Positions 1,953 to 48,849 of a stretch of DNA of 64,000 bases are shown here, piece after piece; positions within the stretch are counted from its first letter, which is position 1, and every line of letters begins with the position of its first letter. Made by a program: the position numbers and the translations under genes. Location of the stretch: NCBI GenBank assembly GCA_020152595.1, contig JAIGNY010001641.1:415001-479000 (forward strand), written 5' to 3'. The notes under the pieces were generated by a model. The model had not been told where the DNA came from. It ran no database searches and saw only the letters and a list, made by a program, of their open reading frames with translations. Origin of the DNA: Chiridota heheva (taxonomy: Eukaryota > Echinodermata > Holothuroidea > Apodida > Chiridotidae).

Positions 1953-2103
1953 ATGAGGCGGAGGTGGTGTTGGAACCAAATGCCATCGTGCCATGGCGAG
2001 GCCCTGCATCCTCTATCACTGACGGTTGTTCTGCTACTGCTGATGACTTTTGTTTTATGTGCCTTAGCAGAAAGTGAAGATGCAGAGCTGAATGCAAAAG
2101 AAG
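1953..2103 (+). CDS. Exon 1 (signal-peptide exon) of a secreted or membrane CUB-like protein gene
   Basis: This is the first recognisable coding exon. An in-frame TAG sits directly before the ATG at 1953, so translation starts at 1953 or at the second in-frame ATG at 1980. From the second Met the peptide has a conventional signal-peptide shape: a short polar start, a hydrophobic core (LSLTVVLLLLMTFVLCALA) and an acidic segment beginning ESEDAE, with likely cleavage after the last Ala of that core. The exon ends AAAGAAG followed by the donor GTGAGG at 2104, leaving one base of a split codon. That base joins the two leading bases of the exon at 16903 to make an Asp codon. A pyrimidine-rich acceptor (CTCCCTCTATGTTCAG) ends at 1908, so the exon probably begins at 1909 with a 44-base 5' leader. 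The splice model is inferred from sequence alone; the signal peptide is directly visible. Confidence 0.68.
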
Positions 2104-3574
2104 GTGAGGAACAATTTTATGGTCTGTGCGAGGCCGTCATTCTTATCTACAAAGTGAGGGAATGAGGCAAAAATTATCGATCTTCTATTTCAAAACAAAA
2201 TCGTTTTTAAAGTGTAGCAAATTTACAGTTTTTTCTCTCCAAGACTTTGTAGTTCATTTTAAACTCCAGTGGGAAACATGCTTGCCCCCAGGAAGTACTG
2301 CTCTCGTCTGTTTTTGTTCTTAGATAAACGTTTATTCTTAATTCTACTATTTTAATCTTTTTGCCACAATGTCTTTTATATGGCAGGAACTGATTCTGAT
2401 TAATATTCATTGGTTTGACCATGGGTGGGATTTGCCTACCGAAAGTTAAAAGTGTGTGGGGGCTGGTGGGAAAAATCACGCTAAGATGGAAAAAACAAAA
2501 AGTAAAAATTCGAAAAAAGTGAGGGGTGGGCAAATTCCCCCTTTGACCCCCTCAAATCCTGTCTATGGGTTTGACCATTCCAAGAAATTGGCTTTACAAC
2601 ATTAAATTCAAGAACAATTATTTTCAGCCTTGACCAACTGAATCGCTGCTTTTGAAGCATTTTTTCTTAAATTGAGAACTATTCTAAGAAATATATTTCA
2701 TGCAGTAAAGTATTACTGGATAATAAATCTTTGTTTGTTTCACCATAGTTAACCAAAGTTTGGTTTTGGTACTTCCATATACATCTTATCAAGCAGTTCA
2801 AATGCTGCTTTTTAATACATTAATTACATACAAAGTAAAAAATGTTTTTCAAATAATTCCTCGGGGTTGGAATTAATTTTTCAATTACCCACGGTTGTGA
2901 ATAAAGGTGTCGAAAATTGTGACAGAAAAAATATTAATGTAGTGAATACATCTTTATATACATCCCCCTTTCGTGACTTTTCATCACACAATTACATGGG
3001 GTACGTTTTAAGAGCACATATTTACCACATATACTGTTGTTTATTCAAGAAATCTAAAAATAATAATTCTTCCCGCAAATTCACAATTATTCCGCGGCTA
3101 TAACCGCCAGAACTGTAGATGTTTTGCAGCTCTGTAATTCCTCAACCTCCTATGTGCATGCTGGTATTGTTGGTATCTTTCCAGTCCATGGGCAGGATTT
3201 GCCTATGGGGACAAAATTAGCGTACAAAAAATCACTATAGAAAAGATAACAATTCTGAAAAAGTTTTTTCAGTAGTTTTGATTTGTGTACAAAAATATAA
3301 CAGTAATTGATAGCTATTGTAGACACAGATCTGGAAATAATCTATATTTTGGAAAAACAGGAATTCGTTTGGTTTTTTTTCATTATGTTTTTTGTTTTAT
3401 TTTGATAGATTTCTTGAGTAAATGTGGTAAATATGTTTTCTAAAAACGTCCCCCATGTCAATGTGCAATGAATAATAGTAAAGAGGGAAGCATATCATGA
3501 TGTTTTTACTACAATAATATGATTTATGTCATGATTTTTCGTGAAGAATTTTGACACCTTTAATCAGGTAGGTA
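2104..3574. other. Start of intron 1, no recognised feature
   Basis: AT-rich sequence directly after the exon 1 donor. I see no coding segment, RNA gene or clear repeat structure. Confidence 0.4.
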
Positions 3575-4050
3575 AGTTAGTTAGGTAACTCAGTTGGTAG
3601 AGCGCATGACTGAGATGTTGGAGGTACTGGGTTCAAGACTCGTCAGGTCTAACTATTTTTCCACAGCTATGCAGACAGATATCGCTGATCATAAAAGCGG
3701 AAGTATGTCGTTTGCAGCTCCTGCTCCCCCCCTCCCCCTCCCCCTCCCATTCAGCTGTTGGAGAAGTGGCAATGGTTGAATGGCACTCGCCAACCTTCGG
3801 AGGGGAGGTTAAACTGTCGGTCTCAATGGTAGGATACACCCTACCTGGTTCTTTGAACACTATTCGAGAAGAGAAGCGTGAAAACGCGGTGTTCATTCAC
3901 TTCCCTGAGCTAATGGATATATGATAAGCCATCTGGGCAGCTCTCCCCTATTCTAAAAAAGCTCCGATGTTTGTAAAGCGCTCCTGAATATACTTGTATA
4001 GAAAGGGCGCTATATCAAATAATTACTATTATTACTATTACTATTATTCA
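3575..4050 (+). mobile_element. tRNA-derived SINE
   Basis: The head carries RNA polymerase III promoter-like boxes: an A box TAACTCAGTTGG at 3586-3597 and a B box GGGTTCAAGAC at 3629-3639. The spacing and wording are those of a tRNA gene, but with no pairing acceptor arms. A GC-richer body follows, with CCTTCGGAGGGG and the tail motif AAGGGCGCTATATC. It ends in (ATT)n at about 4021-4050, as expected for a LINE-mobilised SINE of deuterostomes. The boxes are seen; the mobilising LINE is not known. Confidence 0.75.
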
Positions 4051-4076
4051 GAACTGGGAGAAATTTTGATTTATTC

Positions 4077-6800
4077 CAACTGTCTAGACATCTAGTTTAC
4101 ATTTGGCAAAACACACAAAGAAAATTGCATTCAGTTGTAAAAAAAAAAAAAAAAACTAAACTAGCCACATAATTATATCCTCTGAAAACTATATATGTGA
4201 CTAAATAACAATGTTTTTCCTTTTCCTTGCAGATTCTGTTTAGAATTTCTTGTAAAAAATGCAGTCCCTACTTTTAAAGGTGAACGATCTCTAATACTCC
4301 CTCATCTAATGCCGATGGGTATTAGAGTTAAGGATGATATTTTCACAATCATGTTCATTTCCTTTGACTGTCCATTAAATGAAACGTAATTGATGGTTAT
4401 GTGAGGCCCTGTATGTTTCATGTGAAGAATCATATTTCTTGTAACCCTTCAAGACGTGCTTTTACATTTTTGGAATGACGAAAACTTGAACATTCTGGAA
4501 ATAATGATTTTTCTGGAGTTTTAGCACTTATGCTGATTGTGAAGCAAGATTATGATTATGACAGGCATTGATGTTTTGCTCAAAATAGTAAAGTGGATTG
4601 TTTTTCAATTCAAAAGAAACTTGGGTCTGCGTCTTGGGCAGGAAAGTAAATGTGATTAACGTGATTTGAGTTTGTTACGACCAAAGCATTGGCAAAGTCG
4701 GATTGTAATGTCACATTAATCATTTTAAGCAACTCACATTGCTCTCTGTTCTGCAGGAATTACCACCAAGTGTGTGTGTGTGTGGAGGTGGGGAGTAAAA
4801 AAATCATGTTAATATGCAAATAAGAATAAGTAGATAGAAATTCTAAAAAATTCTCCTGTCATCAAATTTATCAGCATTTTTTCTTTTGGTTTATCTACAA
4901 AATAAAAAAACTACTGTATGTGATAGTCTAGACATCTAGTTTACAATTGGAAAAAAAAAAGAAGGACATTTTATCCAAAAAAAACTTATATATCCTCTGA
5001 AAACCTTTAAAGTAATAACATGTAAATTCTGCCCTGAGAGCTTTCGTGCAGATTCTGTTTTGAATTCCTTCTAAGAAATTCAGTCCTTGCTTTTAATGGT
5101 AAACGATCTCTAGTACTCTCTGACATAATGCCGATGGGTATTAGAGTCCAGGATGATGTTTTTATAATCTTGTTCAATTTCCTTTGACTGTCCATTAATT
5201 GAATTGTAATTGATGGTCACGTTGGGCCCTGTTTGTTTCATGTCAAAAATCTTATTTATTTTAAGCTGTTAAAGATGTGCTTTCACATTTTTGGAATGAT
5301 GAAAACTTGAAAAAAAATAAATAAAGTAAATAAAGATTTGTTTGAAGTTATAGTTATTGTACAACAAGATTATGATTATGTCAGTTATCAATTTTTTGCT
5401 CAAAATGATAAAGCAGATTGTTTTTCAATTCAAAAGAAACTTAAATCTGCAAATCTGCATCTTGGGCAGGAAAATGAATGTGAGTAACAAGATTTGACTT
5501 TGTTATAACAAAGAAAGTTAGTCAGATTGTGAATGTCACATGATTTATATTGAGCCACCCACATTGCGCTGACAGCTCTGCAGGATTTGCCACCAAAAGT
5601 GGGTGGAGAAGTACACAAAAATCTGTGTTAATTTACAAAAGATAAATGAAAATCCATGTTAATTTACAAAAAATAATGTTAAAATATCATGCAGATCAAA
5701 ATTTAAAAAAAATGCTCTTGTCATCAAATATATCAGAATTATTGTCTTTTGGGTAAACTGTCTACCAAAAAGAAAACTGCCCACTTGCGCTGACAGCTCT
5801 GCAAGTCTTGCCACTAGAAGTGGGTGGAGAAGTACACAAAAATCTGTGGTATATTTACAAAAATTAAATAAAGAATCCATGTTGATTAACAAAAAATGTT
5901 AAAATATCATTTAGATCAAAATTCTAAAAAATACTCTTGTCATCAAATATATCGGAATTATTGTCTTTTGGGTAAACTGTCACCAAAACGAAAACTGCCC
6001 ACTTGCTGACAGCTCTGCAGGATTTGCCATCAAAAGTGGGTGGAGAAGTAAAAATAAATCCATGTTAAAATATCATGTGGATACAAATTCTAAAAAAAAG
6101 CTCTTGTCATTAAATATATCAGCATTATTTATTGTCTTTTGGGTAAATTGTCTACACAAATAGAAAAGTTCTGTATAATCATGTCTAGACATCTAGTTTA
6201 CAATTGGCAATAAGAAAGAAGAATATTGTATCCAGTTTAAAAAAAAAAACCTGAAATATATCCTCTAAAAACTTTTAAGTAACATATTATTCCTGCCCTG
6301 AAAGCTTTCATGCAGATTCTGTTTTAAATTCCTTGTAAGAACTTTAGTCCCTGCTTTTAAAGGTGAACGATCTCTAATACTCCCTCACCTAATGCAGATG
6401 GGTATTGGAGTCGAGGATGATATTTTCACAATCATGTTCATTTCCTTTGACTGTCCATTAAATGAAACGTAATTGATGGTCATGTGGGGCCCTGTATGTT
6501 TCATGTGAAGAATCATATTTCTTTTAAGCCCTTGAAGATGCGCTTCCACATTTTTGGAATGACGAAAACTTGAACAATCTGACAATCAAGATATTTTGAT
6601 GAGTTTTTGCATTTATGCTGATTGTATGTACAGCAACATTATGATTGTGACAGTGATTTGTCACTCAAAGAAGTAAAAGTGGATTGTTTTTCAATTCAAA
6701 AGAAACTTTGACTGCGTCTTTAGGCAAGATTTGATATATGTTACAACCAAAGCCAGCATCTGCAGTAAATCAAGATTGTTTAATGTCACATTTATCATTC
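4077..6800. repeat. Composite tandem duplication (A-B modules)
   Basis: Three diverged copies of an ~0.65-kb module A begin at about 4077, 4925 and 6180. Each opens with TCTAGACATCTAGTTTACA and contains AACGATCTCTA and CCGATGGGTATTAG (or close variants). Between them lie copies of a ~0.2-kb module B with GACAGCTCTGCAGGATTTGC and GTGGGTGGAGAAGTA: one near 4735-4900, then about three in a row between 5555 and 6180. The arrangement A-B-A-B-B-B-A indicates at least two rounds of unequal duplication. No coding potential is visible. Confidence 0.7.
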
Positions 6801-7600
6801 TAATGAGCAACTCGCATCACGCATTCCGATCACTCATGTGCAGAATGAACTCTTTCTCTTATGCATCATCGCACTTGCTTTTGATTCTGGTCTGATTCTG
6901 TAGAATGACTCACTTCTCCAATAAGACCTTACTCACTAACTAAATACTTCAAGGATAATATAGTGGTCAAACCAGAGATATTATCATTGCATATCCCTGG
7001 TCAAACATGTCCATCTTATTATATGGAAGATAACAGGGACAAATTGGTTAGAACAGGGAAGTGCCAGTATGTAAGAATCAAGGTATTAGGAAAAAAAAAA
7101 AAAAAAATCTGTTGAAAGTATATGGATGAGTAATGACATCAGCTATTTTGCTTTAAAATTGATCAAAAACCATAAAGAAAAAAAAAAGAAAAAACAATCC
7201 AACAAAACCACTTAAAAATTGACCAGTTTACAGCATTTTGAAATCTAAGGCATCCAGTGGAATGGCTGGGAGTCTGTGATGCTTGATTTGATAGGAGAAC
7301 CTTGTTATTTTTTTTTGTAAATCTTGTTTTCATTATTATTTAAAGTTGTGCAGCAAATTTTGTCCAATACTTTTTGAGTTTCAACATACTCTTATTCAAA
7401 TTCTAGCAGAAATAGACATTCCCATCATTTTCAGATTCAGAGGAGAAATTAAAAGAACTAGATCAAGATGTTGAGCCCAGTCATACATCACAAATAAAAC
7501 ATAAATCAAAAACACTTGAAACTTTCAGCAGCAGTATTACTTGGCCACTAAAAGTGCTATTTTCAAAATTTATAAGCTGATCTGCTCAAATTTAGCATCA
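6801..7600. other. Intronic sequence without recognised feature
   Basis: AT-rich intron with short poly(A) runs near 7090 and 7180. Nothing else was recognised. Confidence 0.4.
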
Positions 7601-7614
7601 TAATATTATTATTA

Positions 7615-7682
<68 letters not shown>

Positions 7683-7722
7683 GCTGCTGCTGTTATTATT
7701 GTTGTTGTTGTTGTTGTTGTTG
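7601..7722. repeat. (ATT)n / (GTT)n microsatellite
   Basis: A near-pure ATT run passes through GCTGCTGCT into a GTT run. The minus strand reads as a poly-Asn frame, which is a consequence of the trinucleotide repeat. Confidence 0.9.
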
Positions 7723-8264
7723 AGTTTACAAATTTGAAACAGGAATTCAAGTTCTAACAGATATGTGCAGAAATGACTTAAATCAAAACAGAAATCACAT
7801 CTCCATCTCACACATTCTTTAGAAGTGACATATTTTGAAATATTTCCTACAATTTGTCTGACCTGACCAAGCTGTTATGGTCTGACGTGCTACCATGTGT
7901 CAGGAGATTGAGTTCTAAAACAGTGTAGTAAAGTCCAGAATCTGTTTTAATAAACAGATTGCTGGGGAAATTTAGTGTAATTTACTATCTGAACAAAATT
8001 TTGTGGAAAAAAACATCAACAGTTAAAAAAAAAAAAAAAAAAAAGAAGCAAAATTAATTCTCAGCAATTAACAACTGTTAAAACTGAGGATATTAACATC
8101 ACTCTTCTACAGTATGTCAGGGAATAGATTTATTGGGGGCGTCACTGTTTATCTTGTTTTTTCTTGGTATCCTTAAACAGAACATTGTGTGATTAGGCCC
8201 TAGAAAGTAGTCCTCCGTCATTTGGGTTTATTTGGTTAATTTAAGTTTTGCTTTCCCTTTTTAG
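7723..8264. other. Intronic sequence without recognised feature
   Basis: AT-rich sequence with a poly(A) run near 8025-8044. No gene or clear repeat was recognised. Confidence 0.4.
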
Positions 8265-8497
8265 CTTAATCATTCGAAGAATAGTAGAGCTGCTACTATC
8301 CCTGGCGTCGGCGTCCTGTAAAAGTTTTGGTTTAAGTTTTCATAACTTAAATTAGTAATGGTGTACATTCCTGTGACTTGGCATAAGGGAAGAGGACATG
8401 GGTACTGATCAAATGAGCATGATTGGAGGGTTAGCTTATTTGCATAATAATGAAAATATTATTCAGGTTAAAGTTTTGGTTAAACTTTTTGGTTTTT
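8265..8497. repeat. Fragment of the ~0.3-kb GTTCAAATGAGCATG repeat family
   Basis: Starts with a GCTACTATCCCTGGCGTCGG head and TAAAGTTTTGG words, then GGTACTGATCAAATGAGCATG and TTATTTGCATAATAATGAAA. These are the same words as in the units at 10330-10940 and 11370-12510. It lies directly against the inverted-repeat element that starts at 8498. Confidence 0.55.
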
Positions 8498-9259
8498 GGT
8501 TCGCATGCGAAGCATTATGCGAACCTATGTAATGGTGATTACGCCGTCCGGCCGTCCACAGATTTGTCCTGAGATTTCCTCAGAAATGTTATTTTTTTTT
8601 TTTAATATTTCAGAAAATGTTAAAGTTTCTTCAGAGTTCCTCAGAAAAAGTTAAAGTTTCTTCAGATATTCTTATGGAAGGTTGGAATTTCCTTAAAAAA
8701 TGTTAAAGTTTTTCAAAAATACTTAAGACAGGATTGAAGACTAGTTTCCTTAAAAGTCTACAAAACATTTGATATTTTCTTAGAAGATAACTGTAAAATG
8801 ATATAATTTTCCAATATTCTTCAGAGATCTTCAAGTCTCTCTTGTAGCACTTGAGATTTAAAATCCTTAAAATTCTTTAAAATATTTGGGCACCAACAGT
8901 TGTATCAGGCATGATTATTAAACTCCACCTTTATTATTGTGGTCATTTGCATAAAGTTGCTACAGTATATGACCTGACCATACTTTTTTTATTTAATATG
9001 CTTAGTCAGGGAGTGTGACAGGATGTGATTGCATATGGACATAGGGAGGGATGCCATGTGGGACATGGATGGAGGCCATGAGGGACATATGATATAATAT
9101 TTACCATATTGTATACACCAAAGGCTATATCAGGCATAATTATTTGACTCCCATCTTTTTTCTTATGCAACAACTCATTTGTGTATCAGTTATTATATGA
9201 ACTGACACTTTCATACATAGTATGCTCAATGAGGGACTGTGATAGATAGGATGAGACTT

Positions 9260-10330
9260 TCTTATGGATCCTATGGGACGTCATGTGAGACATAGGGTGG
9301 GATGCCATATGGGATATGGGGTGGGATGCCATGTGGGATATGGGTTGGGATGCCATGTGGGACATGGAGTGGGATGCCATGTGGGACATGGGGTGGGATG
9401 CCAAGTGGGACATGGGGTGGGATGCCATGTGGGACATGGAGTGGGATGCCATGTGGGACATGGGGTGGGATGCCATGTGGGACATGGAGTGGGATGCCAT
9501 GTGGGACATAGGGTAGGATGCCATGTGGAACAGGTTGGAATGCCATGTAGGATATGTGGTGGAATGCCATGCAGGACATAGGGTGGATTGCCATGGGATC
9601 GAATGTCATGTGGGACATGGCGTCCCACCCCATTTCAACAAGTCATTTGCATATAAGTTATTATATGAACTAACACTTTCATACTTAGTATGCTCAATCA
9701 GGGACTGTGGTAGCCAGGATGAGACTTCTTATGGAGCCTATGGGATGTCATGTGATACATGGGATGGGATGCCAAGTGGACACGGGGTGGGATGCCGTGT
9801 GGAACAGGGTAGAATGTCATGTAGGACATGGTGGGATGCCACGAGTAACAGGGTAGAATGCCATGTGGGACATGGTGGGATGCCACGAGTAACACAGAGT
9901 GTGACATAGGTTGGGATGCCATGTGTGACATAAGGTAGGATGCCATGTGTGACATAGGGTAGGAGGCTATGTGGGACATGGGATGTGATGCCATAAAGTA
10001 GGATATGATAGGGACATTGGGAGGGATACCATGTGGAACATATAGTGGGATGTCATGTGGGACATCGGGTGCGAAGCCACAGATGCGGGACACAGGGTGG
10101 GATGCCATGTGGGACATAGGGAGGGATGTCATGTGGTACATATGGTTGGATAAATGTGGGACATACATGTAGGATGGGATCCATGTGGGTCATAGTGTGG
10201 GATGCCATGTGGGACATATGGTGGAATGCCATGTGGGACATATGGTGGAATGCCATGTGGGACATATGGTGGAATGCCATGCAAGACACTGTGTGGTGGA
10301 ATGCCATGAGGGAGATATGGTGGAATGCAA
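9260..10330. repeat. Minisatellite of GGGATGCCATGTGGGACAT type
   Basis: Tandem ~21-24-bp units follow the pattern GTGGGATGCCATGTGGGACATG. They are most regular at 9300-9510 and more diverged to 10330, with a ~110-bp non-repeat spacer near 9640-9750. All frames give low-complexity peptides (for example M-A-S-H-P-M-S-H on the minus strand), which I attribute to the repeat rather than to a gene. Confidence 0.85.
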
Positions 10331-10935
10331 GTTTTGGTTAAAGTTTTCATAAAAACTTTAAAGTTATGAATAGTGTACATTCATGTAACTTGGCATAAGG
10401 GTACTGATCAAGTTTTTGGTTCAAGTTTTTGGGTGAAGTTTCATAACGTATGGTTTACATTCATGTGACTTGGCATAGGGGTAGAGGACATGGGTACTGT
10501 TCAAATGAGCATTATTAGCGGGTTGTATGTGCATACTAATTTGCTTATTTACATAAGAATGAAAATATTTGTCAGGCTAAAGTTTTGGTTAAAGTTTTCA
10601 TAACTTAAAGTTATGAATGGTGTACATTCATGTAACTTGGCATACAGGTACTGTTCAAGTGAGCATGAATGATTAGGTACTGGTTTTAAGTTTTATGATA
10701 CCAACCAGAGGTGATAACTGTATGAAATTTCAAGCGGTACCTCTGAAGAAGGTTGTGTGTGCATACTAATTAGCTTATTTGCATAGCAATGAAAATATTT
10801 GTATCAATGATATCTCTTAAATTAAAGTAGATGTGGGGATTTTGCACACATGTTCATATATGTGAAGAGCATTGTTTACACTTAATGTTGAGGTAAAGTG
10901 TGCATATTAATTATGTTATTTGCATAACAATATAC
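10330..10935. repeat. ~0.3-kb dispersed/tandem repeat units
   Basis: Units share TAAAGTTATGAATGGTGTAC, CATTCATGTAACTTGGCATA, GGTACTGTTCAAATGAGCAT and TTATTTGCATAACAATGAAA. They interrupt the minisatellite of the surrounding element, and the same words recur at 8340-8470 and 11370-12510. Confidence 0.65.
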
Positions 10936-11295
10936 TTTCGTACAAAATGGGATGTCATGTGGGACATGAGGTGGGATGTCATTTGGGACATGGGATGTAA
11001 TCCATGTGGGACATAGGGTGGAATGCCATGTGTGTCACAGGATGAGATGCCCTGTGGGACATATGATGGAATGCCATGTGGGACAAGGGATGTCATCTGG
11101 GACATGGGGTGGGATGCCATGTGGGACATGGTTGGATGCCATGTGGGACATGGGATGGGATGTCATGTGGGACATGGGGTTGGATCATGTGGGACATGGG
11201 TGGGATGCCATGTGGGACATGGGGTGGGATGCCATGTGGGACATGGGATGAGATGCCATGTGGTACATGGGATGCCATGTGGGACTTCGTGTGAG
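10936..11295. repeat. Minisatellite block, same family as 9260-10330
   Basis: Tandem units of GGGATGCCATGTGGGACATG with ATGGGATGTCATGTGGGAC variants run up to the right arm of the inverted-repeat element. Confidence 0.85.
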
Positions 11296-14900: not shown

Positions 14901-15411
14901 ACTAGAAAGCTATTTAGATTCTCAGCAGCACCTTCTTTGGCCTGTAGCTTCTGGCCGAGCTGTGGCTATAATCTTAGTTTCAAGAATATTTTTAATATGT
15001 AAAATTTGTGATGCATGAAAGAGAAGACAGCTGAAAATCTTTCATGTGAATATTTTAATTTTTGTTCTGAAGTTCAGTCACCATAAATTATCAGACTAGA
15101 CTTGTCTAATTCTCCTACTTATGTTTGGTTTAGGGCATGATTTCTTAATTAACTTTTTCTAAGGGCCACCATTTGACAACAGCCTCAGACTGCAGGCCAA
15201 TTGCATGGCAAAACCAGCATCACATGACAAACAAAATCCTGCCATTTTATAGCGGAACTAAAGATACAATTTGATTTGATAAGCCGCTTGTGAAGGCTGA
15301 TCTGCCTTGCAAAAATCCAAAATAAACGAGGATTTTTGCGATTTTTACCGATCTTATTTGGATTGATCTGGACGTACTATATAAATTTTCCCAACTATGA
15401 TTATTGTTCGC
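14901..15411. other. Intronic sequence flanking the 22-bp minisatellite
   Basis: No coding segment seen. AAGGGCCACCATTTGACAAC (about 15160) has the GGGCCA wording common near ends of hAT-type elements, so part of this stretch may belong to the element from which the adjacent minisatellite grew. Confidence 0.3.
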
Positions 15412-16565
15412 GGGCCAGATTGGATTGTCTGGCGGGCCAGATTGGATTGTCTGGCGGGCCAGATTGGATTGTCTGGCGGGCCAGATTGGATTGTCTGGCG
15501 GGCCAGATTGGATTGTCTGGCGGGCCAGATTGGATTGTCTGGCGGGCCAGATTGGATTGTCTGGCGGGCCAGATTGGATTGTCTGGCGGGCCAGATTGGA
15601 TTGTCTGGCGGGCCAGATTGGATTGTCTGGCGGGCCAGATTGGATTGTCTGGCGGGCCAGATTGGATTGTCTGGCGGGCCAGATTGGATTGTCTGGCGGG
15701 CCAGATTGGATTGTCTGGCGGGCCAGATTGGATTGTCTGGCGGGCCAGATTGGATTGTCTGGCGGGCCAGATTGGATTGTCTGGCGGGCCAGATTGGATT
15801 GTCTGGCGGGCCAGATTGGATTGTCTGGCGGGCCAGATTGGATTGTCTGGCGGGCCAGATTGGATTGTCTGGCGGGCCAGATTGGATTGTCTGGCGGGCC
15901 AGATTGGATTGTCTGGCGGGCCAGATTGGATTGTCTGGCGGGCCAGATTGGATTGTCTGGCGGGCCAGATTGGATTGTCTGGCGGGCCAGATTGGATTGT
16001 CTGGCGGGCCAGATTGGATTGTCTGGCGGGCCAGATTGGATTGTCTGGCGGGCCAGATTGGATTGTCTGGCGGGCCAGATTGGATTGTCTGGCGGGCCAG
16101 ATTGGATTGTCTGGCGGGCCAGATTGGATTGTCTGGCGGGCCAGATTGGATTGTCTGGCGGGCCAGATTGGATTGTCTGGCGGGCCAGATTGGATTGTCT
16201 GGCGGGCCAGATTGGATTGTCTGGCGGGCCAGATTGGATTGTCTGGCGGGCCAGATTGGATTGTCTGGCGGGCCAGATTGGATTGTCTGGCGGGCCAGAT
16301 TGGATTGTCTGGCGGGCCAGATTGGATTGTCTGGCGGGCCAGATTGGATTGTCTGGCGGGCCAGATTGGATTGTCTGGCGGGCCAGATTGGATTGTCTGG
16401 CGGGCCAGATTGGATTGTCTGGCGGGCCAGATTGGATTGTCTGGCGGGCCAGATTGGATTGTCTGGCGGGCCAGATTGGATTGTCTGGCGGGTTAGATTG
16501 GATTGTCTGGCGGGTCAGATTGGATTGTCTGGCGGGTCAGATTGGATTGTCTGGTGGGCCAGATT
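15412..16565. repeat. Homogeneous 22-bp minisatellite, 52 units
   Basis: The unit is GGGCCAGATTGGATTGTCTGGC. Counting from 15412, 49 units read identically up to 16489. Three variant units follow (GGGTTAG, GGGTCAG, GGGTCAG...CTGGT), then a partial unit. The unit has no stop codon in any forward frame and 22 is not a multiple of three. All three + frames therefore stay open and give the same 22-residue cycle (beginning GQIGLSGGPDWI). I treat this as a repeat, not a gene. The downstream GCCCGCGGGC palindrome and CTATTAAAAATCACTG resemble hAT element ends, so the array may have grown from a short GGGCCAGATT motif within such an element. Confidence 0.92.
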
Positions 16566-16902: not shown

Positions 16903-17132
16903 ATAAGCAAATAAGAATTCTGCAGTTGGATACATCACGGGTCTTCCCCCAAATCATGAGCACCATCTTGTTTCCTGGCTTCCAGCAGCAAGTCCCAGAG
17001 CCGGCTTCCTATGTGTACTATCTGATATCGTGGAAGGTACCAGCTCATGTCACAGTGCGCTTTACCGACTTCTTTCTCTTAAAGAGAGATGGCAACTTCT
17101 CAGAATGTGGGGAGAATGGAACGCATTTTAAG
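16903..17132 (+). CDS. Exon 2: CUB-like extracellular segment
   Basis: The exon follows a (TC)n-rich acceptor ending CATCCCAG at 16902. It is open for 76 codons after a split first codon and ends AAG before the donor GTGAGA at 17133, in phase 0. The peptide contains ILFPGFQQQ and, further on, YLISWKVPAHVTVRFTDF. This is the alternating hydrophobic beta-strand pattern of CUB-type domains (x-W-x-V-P-x-x-x-x-V-x-F-x-x-F). One Cys (SECGE) and two N-glycosylation sequons (NFS and NGT) suit an extracellular location. From memory of the family, the Y-P-x-G-F...W-x-x-V-P-A-H arrangement recalls CDCP1, but that assignment is tentative. With exon 1, residues 52-127 of the predicted protein come from here. 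Confidence 0.66.
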
Positions 17133-32609: not shown

Positions 32610-33180
32610 AGGGAGTGTGACAGGATGTGACTGCATATGGACATAGGGAGGGATGCCATATGGGACATGGATGGGGGCCATGCATGTAGGATAGAATATA
32701 TACTATTTGGTATGCACCAAGTGCTATATCAGGCTAGATTATTTTTTTTTCTTATTTAACAACTCATTTGCATATAAGTTATCATATGGACTGACAGACC
32801 TTCATACATATTATGACAGGGACTGTGATAGCTAAGATGAGACTTCTTATGGAGCCTATGGGGTGTCATGTGGGACATGGGGGTGAGATGTTATGTGGTA
32901 CATGGGGTGGGATGCCATGTGGGATATGGGGTGAATTGCCATGTGGGTGAGACAGGGTGGGATGCCATGTGGGACAGGGTGGGATATCATGTGGGACATG
33001 GGATGTCATATGGGGCATGAGGTGGGATGCCATGTGAAACATGGGGTGGGATGCCACGAGTAACACCGTGTGACATAGATTGGGATGCCATGTGTGACAT
33101 AGGGTAGGAGGCTATGTGGGACATAGGGTAGGAGGCCATTGGGACATGGGATGTGATGCCATGTGGGACATAAACATGAT
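32610..33180. repeat. GGGATGCCATGTGGGACAT minisatellite, block 1 of copy 2
   Basis: Irregular ~20-24-bp units, more diverged than those at 9300-9510. The best units are at about 32860-33060. Confidence 0.8.
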
Positions 33181-33184
33181 GAAA

Positions 33185-33560
33185 TAACCCTCTTTAGGAG
33201 GAGTGGTCCATCAGTCATTCATGGGCTTTGCACAAAGTCCTCCAGGCATGTAATGCATATTGATATTTAGGCTCTTGAGCCAAGAATTAATCTGATTCTG
33301 CTTCACTGCCAAGCAGGTATGTGGCTTGAACCCCAGGTGAATTGTGTAAAGTGTAACAGTAGCTGGTTGCTAGCAAGTGAACTGTGAAGAGACTAAAAAG
33401 GCTTTCAGTTGGAAGGTATAGATTACCCCTGTGTTGTGTATGGTGGAACAATAGCTGTTGCTAGTAAAGTGAACTGTGAAGACTCTTGGGTTGAAAGGTG
33501 TGAATTACCCCTGATTTTGATAAAACCGAAGGTGTCAGGTTGGAGGGGTCTAAGGGACAA
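33185..33560. repeat. Non-minisatellite segment with an internal ~100-bp duplication
   Basis: Opens with GGTCCATCAGTCATTCA, which resembles the GGTCCGTCAATCATTCA edge of repeat X. It then contains two tandem copies of a segment with GTGAACTGTGAAGA and ATTACCCCTG. Confidence 0.5.
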
Positions 33561-33564
33561 AAAT

Positions 33565-34320
33565 TCTTAATGAAGTAGGATGTCATAAGGACATTAATTG
33601 GGAGGGATACCATGTGGAACACATGGTGGGATTTAATGTGGGACATAAGGTGTGATGCCATGGGGACATAGGGTGGAATGCCATGTGGGACACAGGGAGG
33701 GATGCCATGTGGGACATAGGGAGGGATGCCATTTGGGACATGTGAATGATTAATGTGGGGCATTGGATGGGATCCATGTGGAACATAGGGTGGGATGCCA
33801 TATGTGTCATAGTGTTGGATGCCATGTGGGACATATGGTGGAATGCCATGTGGGACATATGGTGAAATGCCATGTGGGACATACTGTATGGTAGAATGCC
33901 ATGTGTGAGATATGGTGGAATGCCATGTGGGACAAGGGATGGGATGGGATGTCATATTGGACAAGGGGTGGGATGCCATGTGGGACATGGGATGGGATCC
34001 AAATGGCATCCCTCCCTATGTCCCAAATGGCATCTCATGTGGGACATATGGTGGAATGCCATGTGGGACATACTGTATGGTAGGATGCCATGTGGGAGAT
34101 ATGGTGGAATGCCATGAGGGATGGGATGTCATATTGGACATGGGGTGGGATGCCATTTGGTACATGGGATGGGATCCATGTGGAACATAGGGTGGGGTGC
34201 CATGTGGGTCATAGAATGGGATGCCATGTGGGACAAATGGTGGAATCCCATGTGGGACACATGGTGGAATGTCATGTGAGGCATGGGATACCATGTGGGA
34301 CTTAGTGTGAGATGCCATTT
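33565..34320. repeat. GGGATGCCATGTGGGACAT minisatellite, block 2 of copy 2
   Basis: About 30 irregular units. At about 34005-34035 there is a short inverted piece (GGCATCCCTCCCTATGTCCC), a reversal of a unit within the array. Frames within it are not genes. Confidence 0.82.
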
Positions 34321-35205: not shown

Positions 35206-35401
35206 ATTGTCGATAACTATAAGAGCTCTTACCATTGTGGAGTGCAGCGCCCTCAACCCATTCTTTCAACCACTCAGTGCCTTAAGCTTGAATTACGGAT
35301 CCTTGATTTAAGCTGTACTGCCCTCATTAGGGCAGAATACAAAGTGCTTTCATCGAAAGAGTTTCAGAAAAGACAACTAGATATGCAAGAAGAAAATTTT
35401 G
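35206..35401 (+). CDS. Exon 3: cysteine-containing continuation of the CUB-like protein
   Basis: The acceptor is a strong pyrimidine tract (CTTTCTTTCCTTCAG, ending at 35205), and the donor is G|GTGAGT at 35402. The exon starts in phase 0, matching exon 2, and ends with one base of a split codon. It encodes 65 residues (about 128-192) with three Cys, in SYHCGV, TTQCLK and DLSCTA. A beta-strand-like stretch (LKLELRILDLSC) is followed by a charged segment rich in Lys, Glu and Gln. Cys-containing strand-loop patterns after a W-x-V-P strand are expected where a CUB domain ends and a second repeat begins. There is no transmembrane segment. I recognise no specific family from this exon alone. Confidence 0.64.
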
Positions 35402-38040: not shown

Positions 38041-38042
38041 AC

Positions 38043-38329
<287 letters not shown>

Positions 38330-39340: not shown

Positions 39341-40234
39341 AAGCACAAAACTAATGTTGCATGAGAAGCTTAATTACTTAACCTGTTTTCTTTTCTTGTG
39401 GAATCTGTGATATGGATAAACTTAATGACTAAATTTAAAATGGGTACTTTGCCTGTAACATTTTCTAAAAATAACAGTTATTTAACCTTTGTCATAAATG
39501 ATGAATTTAGGCAACTTCATGAGGCTGCCTCTTAAAAATGATTTCTGCTTGAGTACTTAGTTGTAAAAATGCATTAAATTCAGAGCAGAAAGAAGTCTCT
39601 AAATTTTGCAAGTTCTATCAATTTTTAATTTATGCATAGTGATTTAAGGTAGCCCACATAAACTTTGTGTCATTGAAGAATAATTTCTTGAAAACTGAGG
39701 GAAAATATCCTGAAAACCAATAGTAATTAAAAAATCCTGAAAATGAAGAAAAATTTTCCAAGAAGAAGGAAATTTCCCTCAAAGTTTTAAAAATTTCCTG
39801 AAATATAATAAGAATGTTTTCCAAAATTTGAAGAAACTTCCCCAAAAATTGAAGGAGATTTCACAATTAGCAACAACGTTTCCATGGACGCCTAAATTAG
39901 TAGTGCAATTTTTCCTCTTGTCATCAGAACATTTTGAGGGTTCTTGTTTTCCCGTGAAAGGTGACCCTTCCTACACCCCTAATAATAGTCTTCAGTGTAT
40001 TTTCTTGAAGTATTTTTAGATTTTGAGACTTACAACCACTCGATATGTCAGGAGAGTACTGTAACAGCTAGGGTCTCGTAAGTCATTTTGATTTACCATC
40101 AAAACAATTTTGAATGACTATCAATAAGTGAAAATAGCAAAATAAATTTGAGATAAAATGTCTAAACAATTATTAGGCAAGTGAGGTTGTATCGTTATTT
40201 TTCTACAGTAGAGTTTTGACACATGTAGTTTTCA
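39341..40234. other. Intronic sequence without recognised gene
   Basis: AT-rich, with purine-rich loosely repetitive AATTTCCTGAAA-type wording at 39690-39870. Confidence 0.35.
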
Positions 40235-40509: not shown

Positions 40510-41650
40510 TTTATGACACCTGTAAAATTTGATATATCCTGAATGCAACAATTTTTTAATTTTGTATTTAATTGGTGAGTAAAGAAAGTATACTATAAAG
40601 ACTATTTGCTGTGATAATGTCTAAGCTGAAATTTTGTCCTTCCCTAAATTAACCCAATTTTTAGATAGCATATAAATGATGATTCTATAATTAGTTTATT
40701 CTCTACAGAGGATCTTTCAATTTGCCATTATTACCAAACCTTGTTAAGTTCTAAATCTTTAATTATATTTGATTCACATGTATGCAACTAATTAATGTGG
40801 GTGCTAATCTGCATTGCAAATTCATTGCTGTGATGTCAGGATCAATTCTCTTGTGGTAGTTTTCTCAGCTAATGTGTTATTATAAATTACCAAAAGTAAA
40901 AAAAAACCTGTTATGTTTTTTCTTGAAAAGTTTTGGCTAAATTCCTCTCATGAAATGAAAATGTCAGCAAAATTTTATGAAAGGAAACGTAAGTGTTTTA
41001 TTTATATGAAATTAAGCATAAAATGTGTTTATTTTGAGAGGGAAAATTTCTCAAAAAGATACTAAGAATGCTACTTACATCCATCAAAAAGTCAACAGGA
41101 AATGATTCTCAGGTGATAAGCAATTTTCTGTGGCAAAACTTTTCAAGTGATGCCTGATGTATAAAGGTTTTGAGAAAAATATGTGTGTATGCATGGGAAG
41201 GTGGAGGGAGGTCTGCCACCTCTAGATTTCTCGAACATTTCTTGAGCCTTGCATATGGTTTGAATATAATTGAAGTAAAATATGAAAAAGAAAGAAATGG
41301 GGGAAAATGGGAACTGTTTTCCTTCAGTTGACAGGTAGTATAGGACTTGTTGTGTGACAGTCTTGGGGGAAAACATAGTGCAGTATTAAAAAACATAATT
41401 CGTTCCTCAAATTCAAGTACCTGGCAAAGGAAATGTCTTATGTTGTGGTTACCATTCTACACGTCTTACAATGGATCCTTAAAAAGTATATGTATAGAAA
41501 TTAGTGGCGGGGGTACATTTGGATTTCTTGAAAGTACAGTAAGCCACCAAAGTTTAGAAGGTTCCCATGCACCCCAGTGGATATTACTGATTACACTTTC
41601 ATGAAGAAATTCTTCTCTATAAAGTAATTAGTCAAAATTGCCTGAAGCAT

Positions 41651-42300
41651 CCAGGCTGACAATCTCACATTTCACAGCACAAGCCACCTGCTTGCCAGAC
41701 CAGTATGCAACCCAATCCCCTGCTCATCTTCCTCACTCACATTAACGTTGACCACGTGTGCTCACTATGACAACTGTTTACATGCAATGCACGGTACAAT
41801 GATAACTGGATAGCTCGAAGGCGCCTTCCACAGCGCTCTGCATAGAGGCTCTTTGTTATGAGTGTAAACAAGCACGGGTTACCAGATGTCGGGTTGGGGT
41901 ATTATACCAGGCTTTTTAAATGAAAAGTCCAGTGTCGGGCACGGAAAGCTGTATAGAGAAACTTTTTGACATGTTAATGCACTTCTTCAAACTTGAAAAT
42001 TGTAGTAAGCTGGTATTTAATTTTTGGGTCCAATATTCAAGAGTAACCCTCAAATGAGAGTTATTCTAGAATGAGAGGTTTAAAGAAACCATGAAACCTA
42101 TCATACCTTGGGAGCTAGCCTACAGTAATGTTGCCTTAATATACTAGAAAATTTAAAAAAAAAATGAAAAAGGAGAAAAAATGGAAATATGACACGTGGT
42201 CAACATTAATGTGAGTGAGGATGATGAGCAGGGGATTGGCTTGCATACTGGTCTGGCAAGCTGGTGGTTTGTGCGGTGAAATATGAGATTGTCAGCCTGG
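41651..42300. mobile_element. Element with 109-bp terminal inverted repeats
   Basis: 41651-41759 (CCAGGCTGACAATCTCACAT ... TTGACCACGTGT) and 42192-42300 (ACACGTGGTCAACATTAATG ... GATTGTCAGCCTGG) are inverted copies with only a few mismatches. The 430-bp interior is non-coding. The low divergence between arms suggests a fairly recent origin or conversion between them. Confidence 0.72.
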
Positions 42301-42308
42301 CATTCATG

Positions 42309-42340
42309 CCAATGCTTCATGCCTTGGCATGAAGCATTGG
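42309..42340. other. Perfect 15-bp hairpin
   Basis: CCAATGCTTCATGCC, a TT loop, then GGCATGAAGCATTGG, directly beside the 109-bp inverted-repeat element. Confidence 0.85.
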
Positions 42341-42894
42341 AGTATAGAACTGTTATTTTTAAACCTGGGATTGGGGGAACTTGCTGTAATAAAATGAGGT
42401 GAAAGACCTTGAGGAAGTAAGACTATGTAATGTTAAATTATCCACTTTCATCACCTCACTTAGTCTCTTCAGGCCTCCTGGCCTATAAGGCTGCTATCTA
42501 CTTTCCTACAATGAGTCATTTCATTTGTTCAATTTGATCTGAATCAGGTCTGGTATTAATTAAGACCTATTCATTTGGGGAAACATTTCTCCTTGGACTG
42601 AAAGTCATGATGTACAAATCTTTCATAGACAACTGAAAACTTTTCTCTCACAAATCCAGTACTGAAAATATGGGTGTGCTTGCAAGCTTCCGCAATTAAG
42701 CATCTTGTACGCATGCAGCAAACATACTTGATACTTATACATGCTTATATGTTGGGCATACGTTGAATTGAAACTCATGAAGTAAAACAAACCTATGTTT
42801 AAAAATATCTATAGCCCAAACTAATTGGATAAACATCTGCTTGACCTTATCCCATCCCCATAAAAGATTGTCATCAAGTCAAACATTGTCATCC

Positions 42895-43285
42895 TTTAAC
42901 ATGCTGAAAAGTTTCTCCCTAAGCCTACCCGCACCCAACACCTGAGATAATCCTGAAAACTCAGGGATGACAATTACCAACCCAACTTTCTGTTAAGTGT
43001 ATTGTGTTTCCACCTCAAACAATGATTGTCTATCTGCCAACCCCATGCGAACCACAGCCAAGTAGCCCAAGGCTATTTGTGTGTATAAGATTACAAAAGC
43101 CAGTGGGGAGTAATCAGGGAACTTTTGTGATTGCAATCACTCATCAGTGTCAGGTGTCTTAGCAGGAGAAATTTGTTTGCAAACTGGTGATAATAATAGT
43201 TGTGTATTGTATGCCGGAGGTGATGTGTGTATTAACTGTGAATGATTGACGGACCATTTCTCCTAAGGAAAGATATTGCTTCATG
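42895..43285 (+). repeat. Dispersed repeat X, copy 3
   Basis: CACCCAACACCTGAGATAAT through TCAGTGTCAGGTGTCTTAGC to ATTGACGGACCATTTCTCCT is parallel to the copy at 36330-36745. Confidence 0.72.
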
Positions 43286-44034
43286 AATGCAATCTCTCCC
43301 TTGAAATAATTGATCTTTAAGAGGAACCACAGCGGTTTCCATCATCCTTAATCTCTGGGACATTTCCACATCTAAAGCATATACCATCAAATGTAAGGAA
43401 CTTTTTTTGAAAAAAAGTGATGAAAAATAAAATGAAGGAGAACTGCATATTTGTGTTCAAAGCACCTAACGTAAGCTTTATTGACGAAGCACTGTTATAC
43501 AAGTAAAGTGACAGCTCCCAAACGAGATGTTGATTGTGTTAAGAGGATGGGGATTGAGAGAAAAGTTCAACAGGAAGCTCAGAATAGAGTGGCATAATTA
43601 TGATGATAATCGCTGGGAGTATAGAGTTTCAAGAGAAAAAGATGGGTGAGGGTTGTAATCGAATTAGGCAGGGAAAGCAACACAAGAAGAACCATTGTAT
43701 AAATTTGCGCAAAAAGCTTCAGGCTGGATTATTTCACCTACCTCTTGGTTGAGACAAACATCTTTTATTGCTTTGTCCTAATAAAAAGGAAGGTATTGGT
43801 AAAAGTTGTTGGTGAGAATTTTTTCAGTTCATGCAGTATTCTTATGAATAAATTATACTGCTTATAGGTGAACTCAATTTCTTTTTGAGAAAATGTTTTT
43901 TTATGATACGATTGGTGAAAAAATATAAAAATTGCACCAGACAAGAATTAGGTAATGTTACTTTTTTTAAACAAATTTCTACACAACTTACTAACTTACT
44001 TAATTATATCAATAATCATCCTAAGCCAGAGACC
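43286..44034. other. Intronic sequence without recognised feature
   Basis: AT-rich sequence. No exon-like segment or clear repeat was recognised. Confidence 0.35.
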
Positions 44035-45030
44035 TGAATCCAATAATTGGCCTTCCCGACTACTCGTCTATCTTTTCAGCTGAGGCAAAGGCCATCCTCT
44101 TCACCTTCAACTTTATTGAGTATTCTCCGCTCAGCCACTTTGTCATCTTCTCCAACTCCAAGGCTGTCCTTACTTCTTTACACTTAATTGGGATAACTCC
44201 ACATCCCACCTCCTTCTCCTCCGAAAACTCCTTTTGCCCACCCTCTGCAGGAAAAGTATTCTTTTCTTCTGGATACCCAGCCATGTTGGCATCCCTGGCA
44301 ATAACAGGGCTGATGCAGCCGTTAAGCTTACCCTTAACCCCCTCCCTACCCCTTTTCCCAAAACCCTCTCTGACATCAAACCGCTTATCGCTTCCCTTGT
44401 TTGTGACCGCTGGCAAACCTCATGGAACTCCCAAATTGATAACAAACTCCATGTCATCCAGCCCACAATTCCGATCAAATCCACCATCAACAACCTCTCT
44501 CGTATCGACAACATTCATATTACCCATCTTAGAAATGGTCACACCCACCTAACTCACTCCCACCTCACTCACTCACACCTCACTCACTCCCACCTCACTC
44601 ACTCCCACCTCCTTATTCTCTCCCCAACCCCTCTGCAACAATTGCCATTGCACCCTCACAGTCCACCACGTTCTCCTTTCTTGCCCCCTGTACAACCTTC
44701 CCAGAGCTTCTCCCCACAACTCAATTGCCGAGTTCTTCCAGAAAAACCCTCCAGATAAAATTATTTCCTTCCTTCATCATGCTTCCCTGTACAACCATAT
44801 TTAGTCCTCCCCCTCTACTTTTTGTTTTCCTTTCACCCATGCACCTCTTCTCTCTTGATCCCAGCTTTCTTACTGTTTTTTTTTTAGTTCTTGTATTTCT
44901 CTCATTCTTAATCTTTCTACCCCTAAAATGATTTGCTTTGACCCTCCTACCTCTAGAATGATCTAACCTCTCTGGCACAATTTGACCCTCGTTCTCGTGG
45001 TGCCGTTAAGCCCTCATGAAACAAACAAAC
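44035..45030 (+). pseudogene. LINE 3' fragment with RNase H
   Basis: FSAEAKAIL (about 44075), FSNSKAVL and FFWIPSHVGIPGNNRADAA (44257-44320) are the motifs of an RNase H domain of an I-like LINE, spread over more than one frame. A 15-bp tandem repeat (ACCTCACTCACTCCC, about four units at 44549-44612, read as HLTHS) sits downstream of RNase H. The 3' end has TTTGACCCTCGTTCTCGTGG, TGCCGTTAAG and a (CAAA)n-like tail, as in the fragment at 23331. It is truncated and inactive. Confidence 0.75.
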
Positions 45031-45179
45031 CCTCCCTTCCCCTGCAGATATACATAGCATATACTGCTTTTTTGATAAAAAAGAATCATCAAGTTAGTTC
45101 TAATGTTCCTTATTTTCTATACCTACTGCATATGTAGTTTATAGATGTTTTTCTTTAAACCCATTACAAGCTGCTAATT

Positions 45180-45850
45180 ATTTTAGGTACCAGATGATAA
45201 GAGATTATATATGGTCATTACGTAGATGATAAGAGATTATATATGGTATTAGATGGTAAGAGATTATATATGGTATTACTTAGATGATATGGTATTACTC
45301 AGATGATTAAAGATTATATATGGTAAAACTTAGATGACAAGAGATAATATATGGTATTACTTAGATGACAAGAGATAATATATGGTATTACTTAGATGAT
45401 AAAAGATCATATATGGTATAACTTAGATGATAAGAGATTATTTATGGTATTACTTAGATTAGATGATAAGAGATTATATATGGTATTACTTTATTAGATG
45501 GTAAAAGATTATATATGGTATTACATTTAGATGTTATTGTGTGGTTGAGTGGTTATTTTATAAGATATGGTATTACATTAGGTGGTAAGAGATTATTTAT
45601 GGTATTTCTTAGATGGTAAGAGATATGGTAGATTATTTTTTATTTCTTAGATGGTTAAATGATACTGGTGATATATGGTATTACTTAGATGTTAAGAGAT
45701 TATATATGGTATAACTTAAATGATAAGAGATTATATATGGTATTACTCAGATAATACCGATGATATATGATATAACTTAGATAATAAGAGATTATATATG
45801 GTATTATTTAGATAATAAGTGATTATATATGGTATTACTGAGAACTGTGT
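45180..45850. repeat. Diverged ~31-bp tandem repeat
   Basis: About 20 units follow the pattern GATGATAAGAGATTATATATGGTATTACTTA with many small indels. Confidence 0.88.
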
Positions 45851-46049
45851 TTAAAGGCCAGATATCGTAATAACATGAACAGTAATCAGGCAATATATAG
45901 TGAAAGTCAACGTTTCTGTTTGGTCATACACAAATGCCAACAACCAATCAATAACCGCCGCGGTAGTGACTCTCACGCTGTACATACACACACAATGCGC
46001 ACAGTATGTACGTAATTAGAAATGATTGACAAGCGGATGTGACATGAAA

Positions 46050-46654
46050 GATATGAACATCGCAATTTTACTGAGATGAGATTCCCTCTTTATCAATATC
46101 ATTTTAATGTCTGGTGATGCTGCTGATTTTACGTTTGTGAAACAACATTTAATTCTGAGTAAAAACCCTTTAAATCTTTGAAAAAGCGTATGTAGATTTT
46201 TTTATAGTTATGATTAATCAAACTAATTTTTTTAAGCTTCAAGATTTTAGAATTCAGGTGAAGTTTGTGATATGTCATCAGATGAACAAAGTTTGATGTC
46301 ATATAAGTAATTCTTTAAGATGTGTTCTTCAGTTTTAACAAGTTATAAGTTGTTTTTCTTCTTTGCTGATTACTTGCTGCCCCAGGAGAGGGAGGGGGGG
46401 GTATCATCAAGTTTTAAAATCTCCAGATGGAATCAGATATTGACCACCAAAATATATTTTAGAGAGAATTGAAAACAAAGGATTTCCATTAAAAAAAAAT
46501 TTTTTGAAGATTTGTTTATCTGCCTGTCACAAATTATTTTGCTATAAGGCTAAACAAATGAAAATGCTGTAAAATGAGAATTTTTAAATGATTTTGATGG
46601 GAGCTTTTGCTGTAATTTATTTTGAATTATTTAAGCTCAAGTTGTTTCAATCTT
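46050..46654. repeat. Dispersed repeat Z, copy 1
   Basis: GATTTTAGAATTCAGG, ATCAGATGAACAAAG, GGAATCAGATATTGA and GATGGGAGCTTTTGC match 57325-57650 in order. Confidence 0.6.
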
Positions 46655-47315
46655 GGATCTATTCAAAAACAATCCTTCCTCCAACATTATCAACTTCCTC
46701 TGCAACAACAACCTATTTCACCATATCTAATCTACCTTTCTCTTCCCTTTTACACATAACCTACACCCCCTTTCTTTTCACCTTAATTTTTCATGCTATT
46801 CCCCCCCCCCCTTTTCTTCTTCCTAATCCACCATCTCCTCTCTGCCCTAACTCTTACAGTACACTATAATTTTTCAACACATTTGCCATTTTTTGGGGCA
46901 CATTTGGCTCTGACTGTAGCAGTGCCGTTACCCTAACAGAAATTAAAAGCTAAGCTGCCACAAGCTTGCAATAAGCAAAAAGTTTTAGCTTGCTGCAACC
47001 TTGCGGCAAGCTTGCAGCAAGCTAGTATTTAGGACAAATGCAAACTTGTTAGCTTGTGCAAGCTAGCAAAAACCTTTCCGCAAGCTTGCAAAAACTTTCT
47101 GGAAGCTTGTGCAAGCTAACAAATACTTCATTGCTAGTTTACGCAAGCTAATGTTAGTTTGCGCAAGCTGCTAACAAGCTTGCATTTATTCCAAATTCAA
47201 GGTTGCAGCAAGTTTGCGCAAGCTAAAAATTGTTAGCTTGTCGCAAGCTTGGTGCAAGCTAGTTTTTTTTCTTCTTTTTTCTGTTAGGGTAAACATCAAC
47301 AAACCAGACCGACAC
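46655..47315 (+). mobile_element. LINE 3' end interrupted by a GCAAGCTTGC-rich element
   Basis: GATCTATTCAAAAACAATCC, GCAACAACAACC and TCTGACTGTAGCAGTGCCGT match the end of the LINE at 29095-29395. The match resumes after 47289 with AAACATCAACAAACC. Only the non-coding 3' region is present. Confidence 0.75.
46931..47289. mobile_element. GCAAGCTTGC-rich inverted-repeat element, copy 3
   Basis: Starts CCCTAACAGAAATT and ends TTTCTGTTAGGG. The interrupted LINE reads GCCGTTA before and TAAACATC after it, while the intact LINE at 29353 reads GTCGTTAAACATC. This fits insertion with a TA duplication, or with none if one more base on each side belongs to the element. The interior is again GCAAGCTT/GCTAGC words. 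Confidence 0.75.
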
Positions 47316-48711
47316 ATGTTCATTTTCACAATACTTTTCATTCTCTAATCTCATAATTTCAAGGAAAGGAAAAGAAAAAATTTATTGGCTGTTTTTTATC
47401 CATAAAATTGAATCTCAAGTGACCCAAAATTGAGGCAGTGGCAAAAACATGAGAATAAACAAGTTCATTGTACACCCACAGTCTTTAATGAGTTGTCATA
47501 ATAATTGTTTGCTTCATTTATGTCAATCTTTTAGATGGCCTTGCCTTGATGGAGTACTTGCAATCAATTCTTTTAATCAATGTAAAGACATTCCACTTGA
47601 TGGTGCTTGAATCCAATGAAAAATATGCATTAATTGCTTTTTAAGTTGTCAAAATTTTACCAGGTTTTGATTTGGTGTAAAAACAATTCTGTGTTATGTG
47701 AGCAATTTTTGCATTTTAATTTGCTTTAAACCTGCATGCCAGTTGAAAGCATAGACGATGTACATTTTAACCAATTATTGCTTTGGTTTTGTGATAAAGG
47801 TTTTGCTCATTAAATGCATTTTACTCTTGACAGTGAAATGTCAATATTGTTAGATTCCTTCAAGAATAGGTCATTGCATTTTGAGGCCCCGGCTTTCAGC
47901 AAAGATTGAAAGATAAGTTTAGCACAAGGGCAATGACTCTTCTATGAGGAAGCTGTAGGAGACAAGAGTAGACAACTTGGTAAAGCGAGCCTTATACAAA
48001 TTACTCCTTTAGCTTAACCTCATATATAAATAGATAATTCATTTATGTAGATTTTCATGTATACAATTAAAGATTAATGTTGAGGTAGATTGTTATATGC
48101 GTATTTAATGCACAGGACAAAGGACTTTGGCCCGTGTAGAAATTGGCCTGACTTTAGGAGGGTCATTCGCAAGTGCAAAGTCCTTTGAACTGTGCATTAA
48201 ATATGCATATAAACAGGATGCCAATACATAATATTTTTATAAAAATTTGTGTTAGATTGTTTAAAATGCATAAAAACAACTAAACAGAATGAAACATGAT
48301 TATCGCTTTTTTAAAAAATTACCTGTTTTGAAAATGGAATAAACGAAATAATCATTGTCATGCATTAACAGTATTTAATCCATGGGTCATAACAATGCAA
48401 ATACTCCATAGAATTTGTTGTAATCATTTAAAAAAATGCTTTATAATGAACAAAGTAAATGAAACATAACCCTAACACCATAAGATTACCCCTAACAACC
48501 TGAACAATTTTAAAGGGAATTTAAACGATGGGGGTAAAATTTTCCAAAGGCTCACAAATATTTAGCAAAACTTGTTGTCCCTTGTGGAGAGCTAAAGAAC
48601 ATTGATATTTGACCATACCCTTTGGTCTGTTTATAGAAAATATATATGAGGTAAAGCATCTCATTGAATTGGAATAAATATGTCAATTAATTTCTTTGTT
48701 TTCTTTTTCAG
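47316..48711. other. End of intron 3
   Basis: No recognised repeat. The T-rich acceptor tract of exon 4 lies at about 48690-48711. Confidence 0.4.
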
Positions 48712-48849
48712 TTCAGAGTACTACGTTGTTAACCAGTGACCTAGGTAGCTTACGGACCACAATCATTGGTAATCCATGCTGTAAATCGGTGGATTATTTG
48801 TGGTATGTTTGTCTCAGGAAGCATCAAGAAGTACTGTTTACATTAGAAG
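48712..48849 (+). CDS. Exon 4: further extracellular segment of the CUB-like protein
   Basis: The exon follows the acceptor TTTTCTTTTTCAG (ending at 48711) and ends before the donor GTGAGT at 48850. It starts with two bases that complete a Val codon with the last G of exon 3, and ends with one base of a further split codon (phase 1 on both sides). The 45 whole codons (about residues 194-238) contain a CC pair (IIGNPCCKSV) and a third Cys (WYVCLRK), again with beta-strand-like composition. Exon 4 is a 138-bp symmetric exon, so it could be skipped without a frameshift. No following exon with a matching phase was recognised before the end of the window. Confidence 0.63.

Follow-up and report, generated by a model that had tools for sequence, protein, structure and literature searches.

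The window analysed here, 64,000 nucleotides of the holothurian Chiridota heheva (assembly GCA_020152595.1, contig JAIGNY010001641.1, positions 415,001 to 479,000 of the forward strand), probably carries on its + strand the first four coding exons of a single gene, spliced in the order E1-E2-E3-E4 and most likely continuing past position 64000, in which E2 and E3 together encode a diverged CUB-like domain. The four segments look like genuine opening exons of a single gene of animal type, whose product would be secreted or displayed on the cell surface. E1 (1953-2103, 151 nt), the first coding exon, would provide a signal peptide and leaves in phase 1 at the donor AAG/GTGAGG; E2 (16903-17132, 230 nt; phase 1 in, 0 out) would form the CUB-like domain's first half, with a PGF start and a V.V.F.DF strand; E3 (35206-35401, 196 nt; phase 0 in, 1 out) is the proposed second half, marked by CG..P..I.ST; and E4 (48712-48849, 138 nt; phase 1 in, 1 out) adds an extracellular-type peptide with three cysteines before the donor AAG/GTGAGT. 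The introns between them measure 14799, 18073 and 13310 nt. A first-pass annotation had proposed these four segments with canonical sites and fitting phases, and its borders, its splice dinucleotides (GT at 4/4 donors, AG at 3/3 acceptors) and its phases across the junctions (1/1, 0/0, 1/1, with E4 leaving in phase 1) were all reproduced. Its single continuous peptide likewise holds: the joined translation is open throughout its 238 aa, and has ten cysteines, of which three lie in E1 and the seven it had counted in E2-E4 (split by eye), and two sequons, NFSE and NGTH, both in E2.

The case for these exons rests on splice strength and openness together. Scored with generic donor and acceptor consensus matrices, the donors of E1, E2, E3 and E4 rank 4, 10, 37 and 2 among 3421 GT sites, and the acceptors of E2, E3 and E4 rank 34, 6 and 9 among 3400 AG sites. 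We counted open AG..GT segments of 130-350 nt whose sites reached the worst site scores of the finding, cut-offs that are therefore post hoc: the + strand holds three such strict loci, E2, E3 and E4 and no others, and the - strand holds none. Dinucleotide shuffles in 2-kb blocks gave a mean of 0.115 loci at these cut-offs, none of the 200 reaching three. At looser cut-offs (3,3) the + strand still yields E2-E4 only and the - strand four loci, the shuffles averaging 1.23 with three or more in 24/200. The first-pass annotation had leaned on the low chance of three successive phase matches; that argument was overrated as the main one, since at 1-in-3 per junction a phase fit alone arises by chance in about 1/27 of cases. 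The better measure is the number of strict loci, three against 0.115 expected. GC content is 0.40-0.49 in the four exons and 0.34-0.38 in their flanks. None of them overlaps a repeat when the window is compared with itself, and a tblastn search detected no further E1-E4 copy in it.

E1 has the properties of a signal-peptide exon. Its start ATG has an in-frame TAG immediately upstream, and a second in-frame ATG at 1980 retains the signal peptide; the hydrophobic core reads LTVVLLLLMTFVLCAL, and cleavage is likely to occur after ALA, as predicted by the -3/-1 rule. When ATG-to-donor segments of 75-300 nt with a donor score of 4.8 or more were searched with a 12-residue hydropathy limit of 2.2, the limit was reached by 2/13 rows on the + strand, these being the two E1 starts, and by 0/29 on the - strand (3.18 for E1 vs 2.12 for the best - strand row). 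The clean signal peptide described earlier is thus the sole signal-type first exon in this search, and the search and the strict exon loci together support the earlier proposal of one gene opening with such an exon.

The likeness of E2+E3 to CUB domains (PF00431; e.g. TSG-6, cubilin, PCPE-1, neuropilin) is moderate, as judged by sequence comparison. It comprises the PGF start, the V.V.F.DF strand, the CG..P..I.S block and a Cys pair at the C3/C4 positions. The best match of joined E2E3 among the 177635 sequences of the PDB was the TSG-6 CUB domain, weakly matched but aligned across the exon junction (E 0.3; 0.58 with the whole joined peptide as query); the sole other row for E2E3 was a serpin (E 0.59). 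On a hidden Markov model (HMM) of nine classical CUB domains, TSG-6 included, E2E3 scored 14.9 bits, E3 11.6 and E2 5.7, with 0/2000 shuffles as high as E2E3 (best 8.8); CDCP1 regions, scored alongside, reached 18.4 and 5.3 bits. With hhalign, 77 colinear columns of E2+E3 were aligned to the nine-CUB profile at 29% identity (P 0.0015), a score matched by 0/500 shuffles and above that of the reversed sequence (23.8 vs 10.3). Removal of TSG-6 left HMMER scores of 11.3 bits for E2E3, 10.4 for E3 and 3.5 for E2 on the remaining eight CUBs, with no shuffle as high (best 10.3; 1665/2000 reported). Among exon pairs that fit in phase, 25905 over the two strands, E2+E3 variants filled the top 25 rows on the nine-CUB profile, where the exact pair ranked 14 of the 19515 that received a score; with eight CUBs its rank was 16 of 19780, two rows that pair E3 with an unrelated segment lying slightly above it. 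Joining at 17106/35177 instead raises the CUB profile score (to 17.2 vs 14.9 bits) but relies on weaker splice sites, and for this reason the junctions of the finding were kept. By these profile scores a CUB-like signal is present in E2+E3 and is carried mostly by E3, while E2 owes most of its likeness to TSG-6. E4 by itself gave no CUB score. The CUB-like strands that the first-pass annotation had seen in all segments beyond the first are upheld moderately for E2-E3, chiefly for E3, and not for E4.

Several results weigh against this reading. Pfam, an HMM search of the kind put forward earlier as a check, returned no family, CUB (PF00431) included, at E up to 10 for the joined peptide, for E2, E3 and E4 singly or for E2+E3, and hence no match at the gathering score, HMMER filters being liable to drop weak matches; trimmed E2+E3 likewise gave nothing. 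The hhalign probability of the nine-CUB match is 17%, and TSG-6 had entered that profile as the choice of the query itself; without it the hhalign P value rises to 0.0094, 5/500 shuffles score as high, and E3 alone (19.5) does about as well as E2E3 (19.6). On the eight-CUB profile E3 joined to the unrelated segment 41655-41755 exceeds the true pair (11.6 vs 11.3 bits). Codon-position composition gave no coding signal against 5000 controls, in a test that is weak at 238 codons: controls scored as high in 2460/5000 cases for RNY, 2804/5000 for position asymmetry and 1281/5000 for G1-G2. The domain hallmarks are also incomplete. E2+E3 has no Cys for the first disulfide (C1-C2), the C19 column being occupied by another residue and E2 having a single Cys, and the profile acids E41 and D49 are not conserved; with D90 these are the acids of the CUB calcium site (A1 numbering; D90 lies outside the aligned columns). 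The first Cys pair is missing in some CUB domains. Since E2+E3 has neither that pair nor two of the calcium-site acids, binding through a calcium site is unlikely. E2+E3 further differs from CUB in two extra Cys in the C-terminal strand region. We call the E1-E4 peptide CUB-like and file it neither as a PF00431 member nor as CDCP1; because the test without TSG-6 came out weaker, we hold the CUB part with less confidence and weigh a non-CUB alternative below.

Should the exons be used as proposed, the signal peptide would route the chain into the secretory pathway, and E2+E3 might fold there as a diverged CUB-like beta-sandwich, N-glycosylated and held by one conserved disulfide. Our best guess for its role is extracellular binding of protein partners that does not involve the customary CUB calcium site. 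E4, a good exon with no assigned fold, would then begin a following domain. Exons beyond those seen in the window would decide between secretion and membrane anchoring of the complete protein.

The remaining exons of the gene are most likely downstream of 64000. No strong + strand internal exon was found in 48850-64000: with sites of 2 or more and lengths of 60-350 nt the search gave only 62518-62596, in phase 2, and a laxer search in phase 1 gave five weak candidates. Because candidate terminal exons remain on the + strand at acceptors 52254 (score 6.5; 31 codons to the stop in the phase-1 reading) and 55500 (score 7.7; 37 codons), both without recognisable feature, the gene could also end inside the window. 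A new element here is that the E4 frame runs past its donor to a stop lying inside ATTAAA, a possible end for a soluble isoform. This possible alternative 3' end of E4 (48850-49082, + strand) comprises 77 further open codons, the first split with E4, up to a TAA at 49080-49082, which is overlapped by the hexamer ATTAAA, of poly(A)-signal type (49078-49083, + strand). Shortly downstream of the stop begins a satellite array (~2 kb, 49131-51161), in which a 35-nt unit is repeated about 60 times.

One alternative to the proposed splicing is accordingly that in some transcripts the same gene ends in E4, the donor being skipped and the predicted soluble protein reaching 315 residues, signal included, at TAA 49080. 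The combination on which it draws is rare: an open run of at least 77 codons with a poly(A)-type hexamer where it stops occurred at 10/91657 control positions of the window and 0/4556 control GT positions, figures from a test devised after the sequence had been seen and from control positions that overlap and are not independent; taken apart, such openness is reached at 1.7% of positions, and a hexamer lies at the stop for 10.9%. A comparable origin is described for soluble NRP1 and NRP2, through processing within an intron or its inclusion (PMC5641316). On the other side stand the near-perfect E4 donor (rank 2 of 3421) and the lack of any Pfam or PDB match for E4 with its open tail. We regard such an ending as unlikely, and the more general proposal, that E4 read-through gives a CUB-like gene of receptor type, with its very long introns, an inbuilt soluble form, as distinctly unlikely, a range of grades kept low because the test was devised with the sequence already known. 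If true, a single site would decide whether a short decoy is secreted or a long, probably membrane-bound protein is made, which would be of minor regulatory interest.

The other alternatives concern the identity or the integrity of the exon set. That E1-E4 are joined as proposed and E2+E3 form some other beta-rich extracellular domain, with a CUB likeness due to chance, would agree with the blank Pfam result and with the hhalign comparison lacking TSG-6, in which shuffles equalled the score and E2 added almost nothing; the two nine-CUB tests, in which no shuffle scored as high, the top PDB match, which is to a CUB domain and spans the junction, and a phase pattern suited to an extracellular class 1-1 module (see below; PMC8001218) argue against it, leaving this alternative somewhat unlikely. 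It is appreciably less probable, though still to be reckoned with, that E2+E3 belong together while E1 and/or E4 come from another transcript, or that small extra exons intervene: neither E1 nor E4 finds a sequence match by itself, their phases would fit at 1-in-3 per junction, and open AG..GT pairs at 39928-39960 and 43166-43219 fit in phase between E3 and E4. Against these possibilities, E1 is unmatched as a signal-type first exon in the hydropathy search, and the splice sites of the small pairs are weaker than those of E2-E4. Two further short AG..GT pairs were rejected, 4757-4787 as it would alter the phase into E2 and 4233-4279 as it is not open in the phase needed by E1. The exons might also be real but remnants of a decayed gene or a gene fragment, as the missing profile match in Pfam, the missing codon-position signal and the lack of a convincing later internal exon in 48850-64000 would allow; with all seven splice sites intact and strong and four frames open in matching phase, we consider decay improbable. 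Least credible is a chance set of open segments. Phases alone match in about 1/27 of sets, the matrices and cut-offs were picked after the fact, and 24/200 shuffles reach three loci when the cut-offs are loosened; no shuffle, however, holds three strict loci, and the CUB likeness of E2+E3 is a separate line of evidence.

The window also contains other features. A 22-bp unit is repeated 52.9 times at 99% match in 15403-16565, probably a young minisatellite, all six frames being open across most of it; related 24-bp minisatellite units (TGGGATGCCATGTGGGACATGGGG) occupy two regions about 21.6 kb apart, 9274-11274 and 32859-34318. An open reading frame (ORF) on the - strand at 60480-61094 matches the zinc finger zf-C17orf113 (E 1.4e-7) and looks like part of a hAT/ZMYM-type transposon, and a + strand ORF at 44120-44758 has a weak RNase H match (E 0.0097, below the curated cut-off) and a WIPSHVGIPGN-type motif of the kind found in non-LTR (long terminal repeat) retrotransposons. 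By eye the stretch 3570-3660 resembles a tRNA and might form the head of a short interspersed element, with no ARAGORN call; Rfam and ARAGORN searches of the window returned nothing. On the - strand an 85-nt AG..GT segment at 57917-58001 is open in two frames, and its acceptor (10.8) is the highest on that strand among the matches listed.

If the proposed gene is real, a gene encoding a diverged extracellular module extends across more than 47 kb of DNA rich in repeats, in which gene finders can easily miss or split exons. It would be an ordinary kind of gene, and the exact junctions given here map it well enough for RNA testing.

Among known proteins, the first-pass annotation had pointed to a loose resemblance to CDCP1, which comparison did not support. 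None of the CDCP1 Pfam models (PF23665, PF23667, PF23668, PF25142) matched the joined peptide, whereas human CDCP1, used as positive control, was recognised by four CDCP1 models and CUB; and pairwise scores against the CDCP1 ectodomain were common among shuffles, of which 87 of 2000 scored as high for E2, 1825 for E3, 759 for E4, 271 for E2E3 and 404 for E2E3E4. Loose CDCP1 likeness would be poor evidence in any case, because the N-terminal part of CDCP1 is without CUB fold in its AlphaFold model (PMC8843743). What the two share is a signal peptide followed by extracellular sequence of non-classical CUB likeness, and a local VPAH stretch in the pairwise alignment; they differ in that the transmembrane segment and cytoplasmic tyrosines of CDCP1 are not in the window as read. 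Of the matches listed in literature searches on CDCP1 with invertebrates, with lancelets and on its structure, none dealt with a gene of this kind.

The exon phases can be compared with those of class 1-1 modules. CUB itself is of class 1-1, a statement that none of the matches listed on CUB exon phases, all general papers, makes. Shuffled modules of animal extracellular proteins are of class 1-1, and near signal-peptide cleavage sites introns of phase 1 are over-represented (PMC8001218). E2+E3 departs from such modules in being split by an internal phase-0 intron and in the window holding no second E1-E4 copy, and resembles them in having phase-1 introns at both its borders, as class 1-1 entails, one of them soon after the signal peptide.

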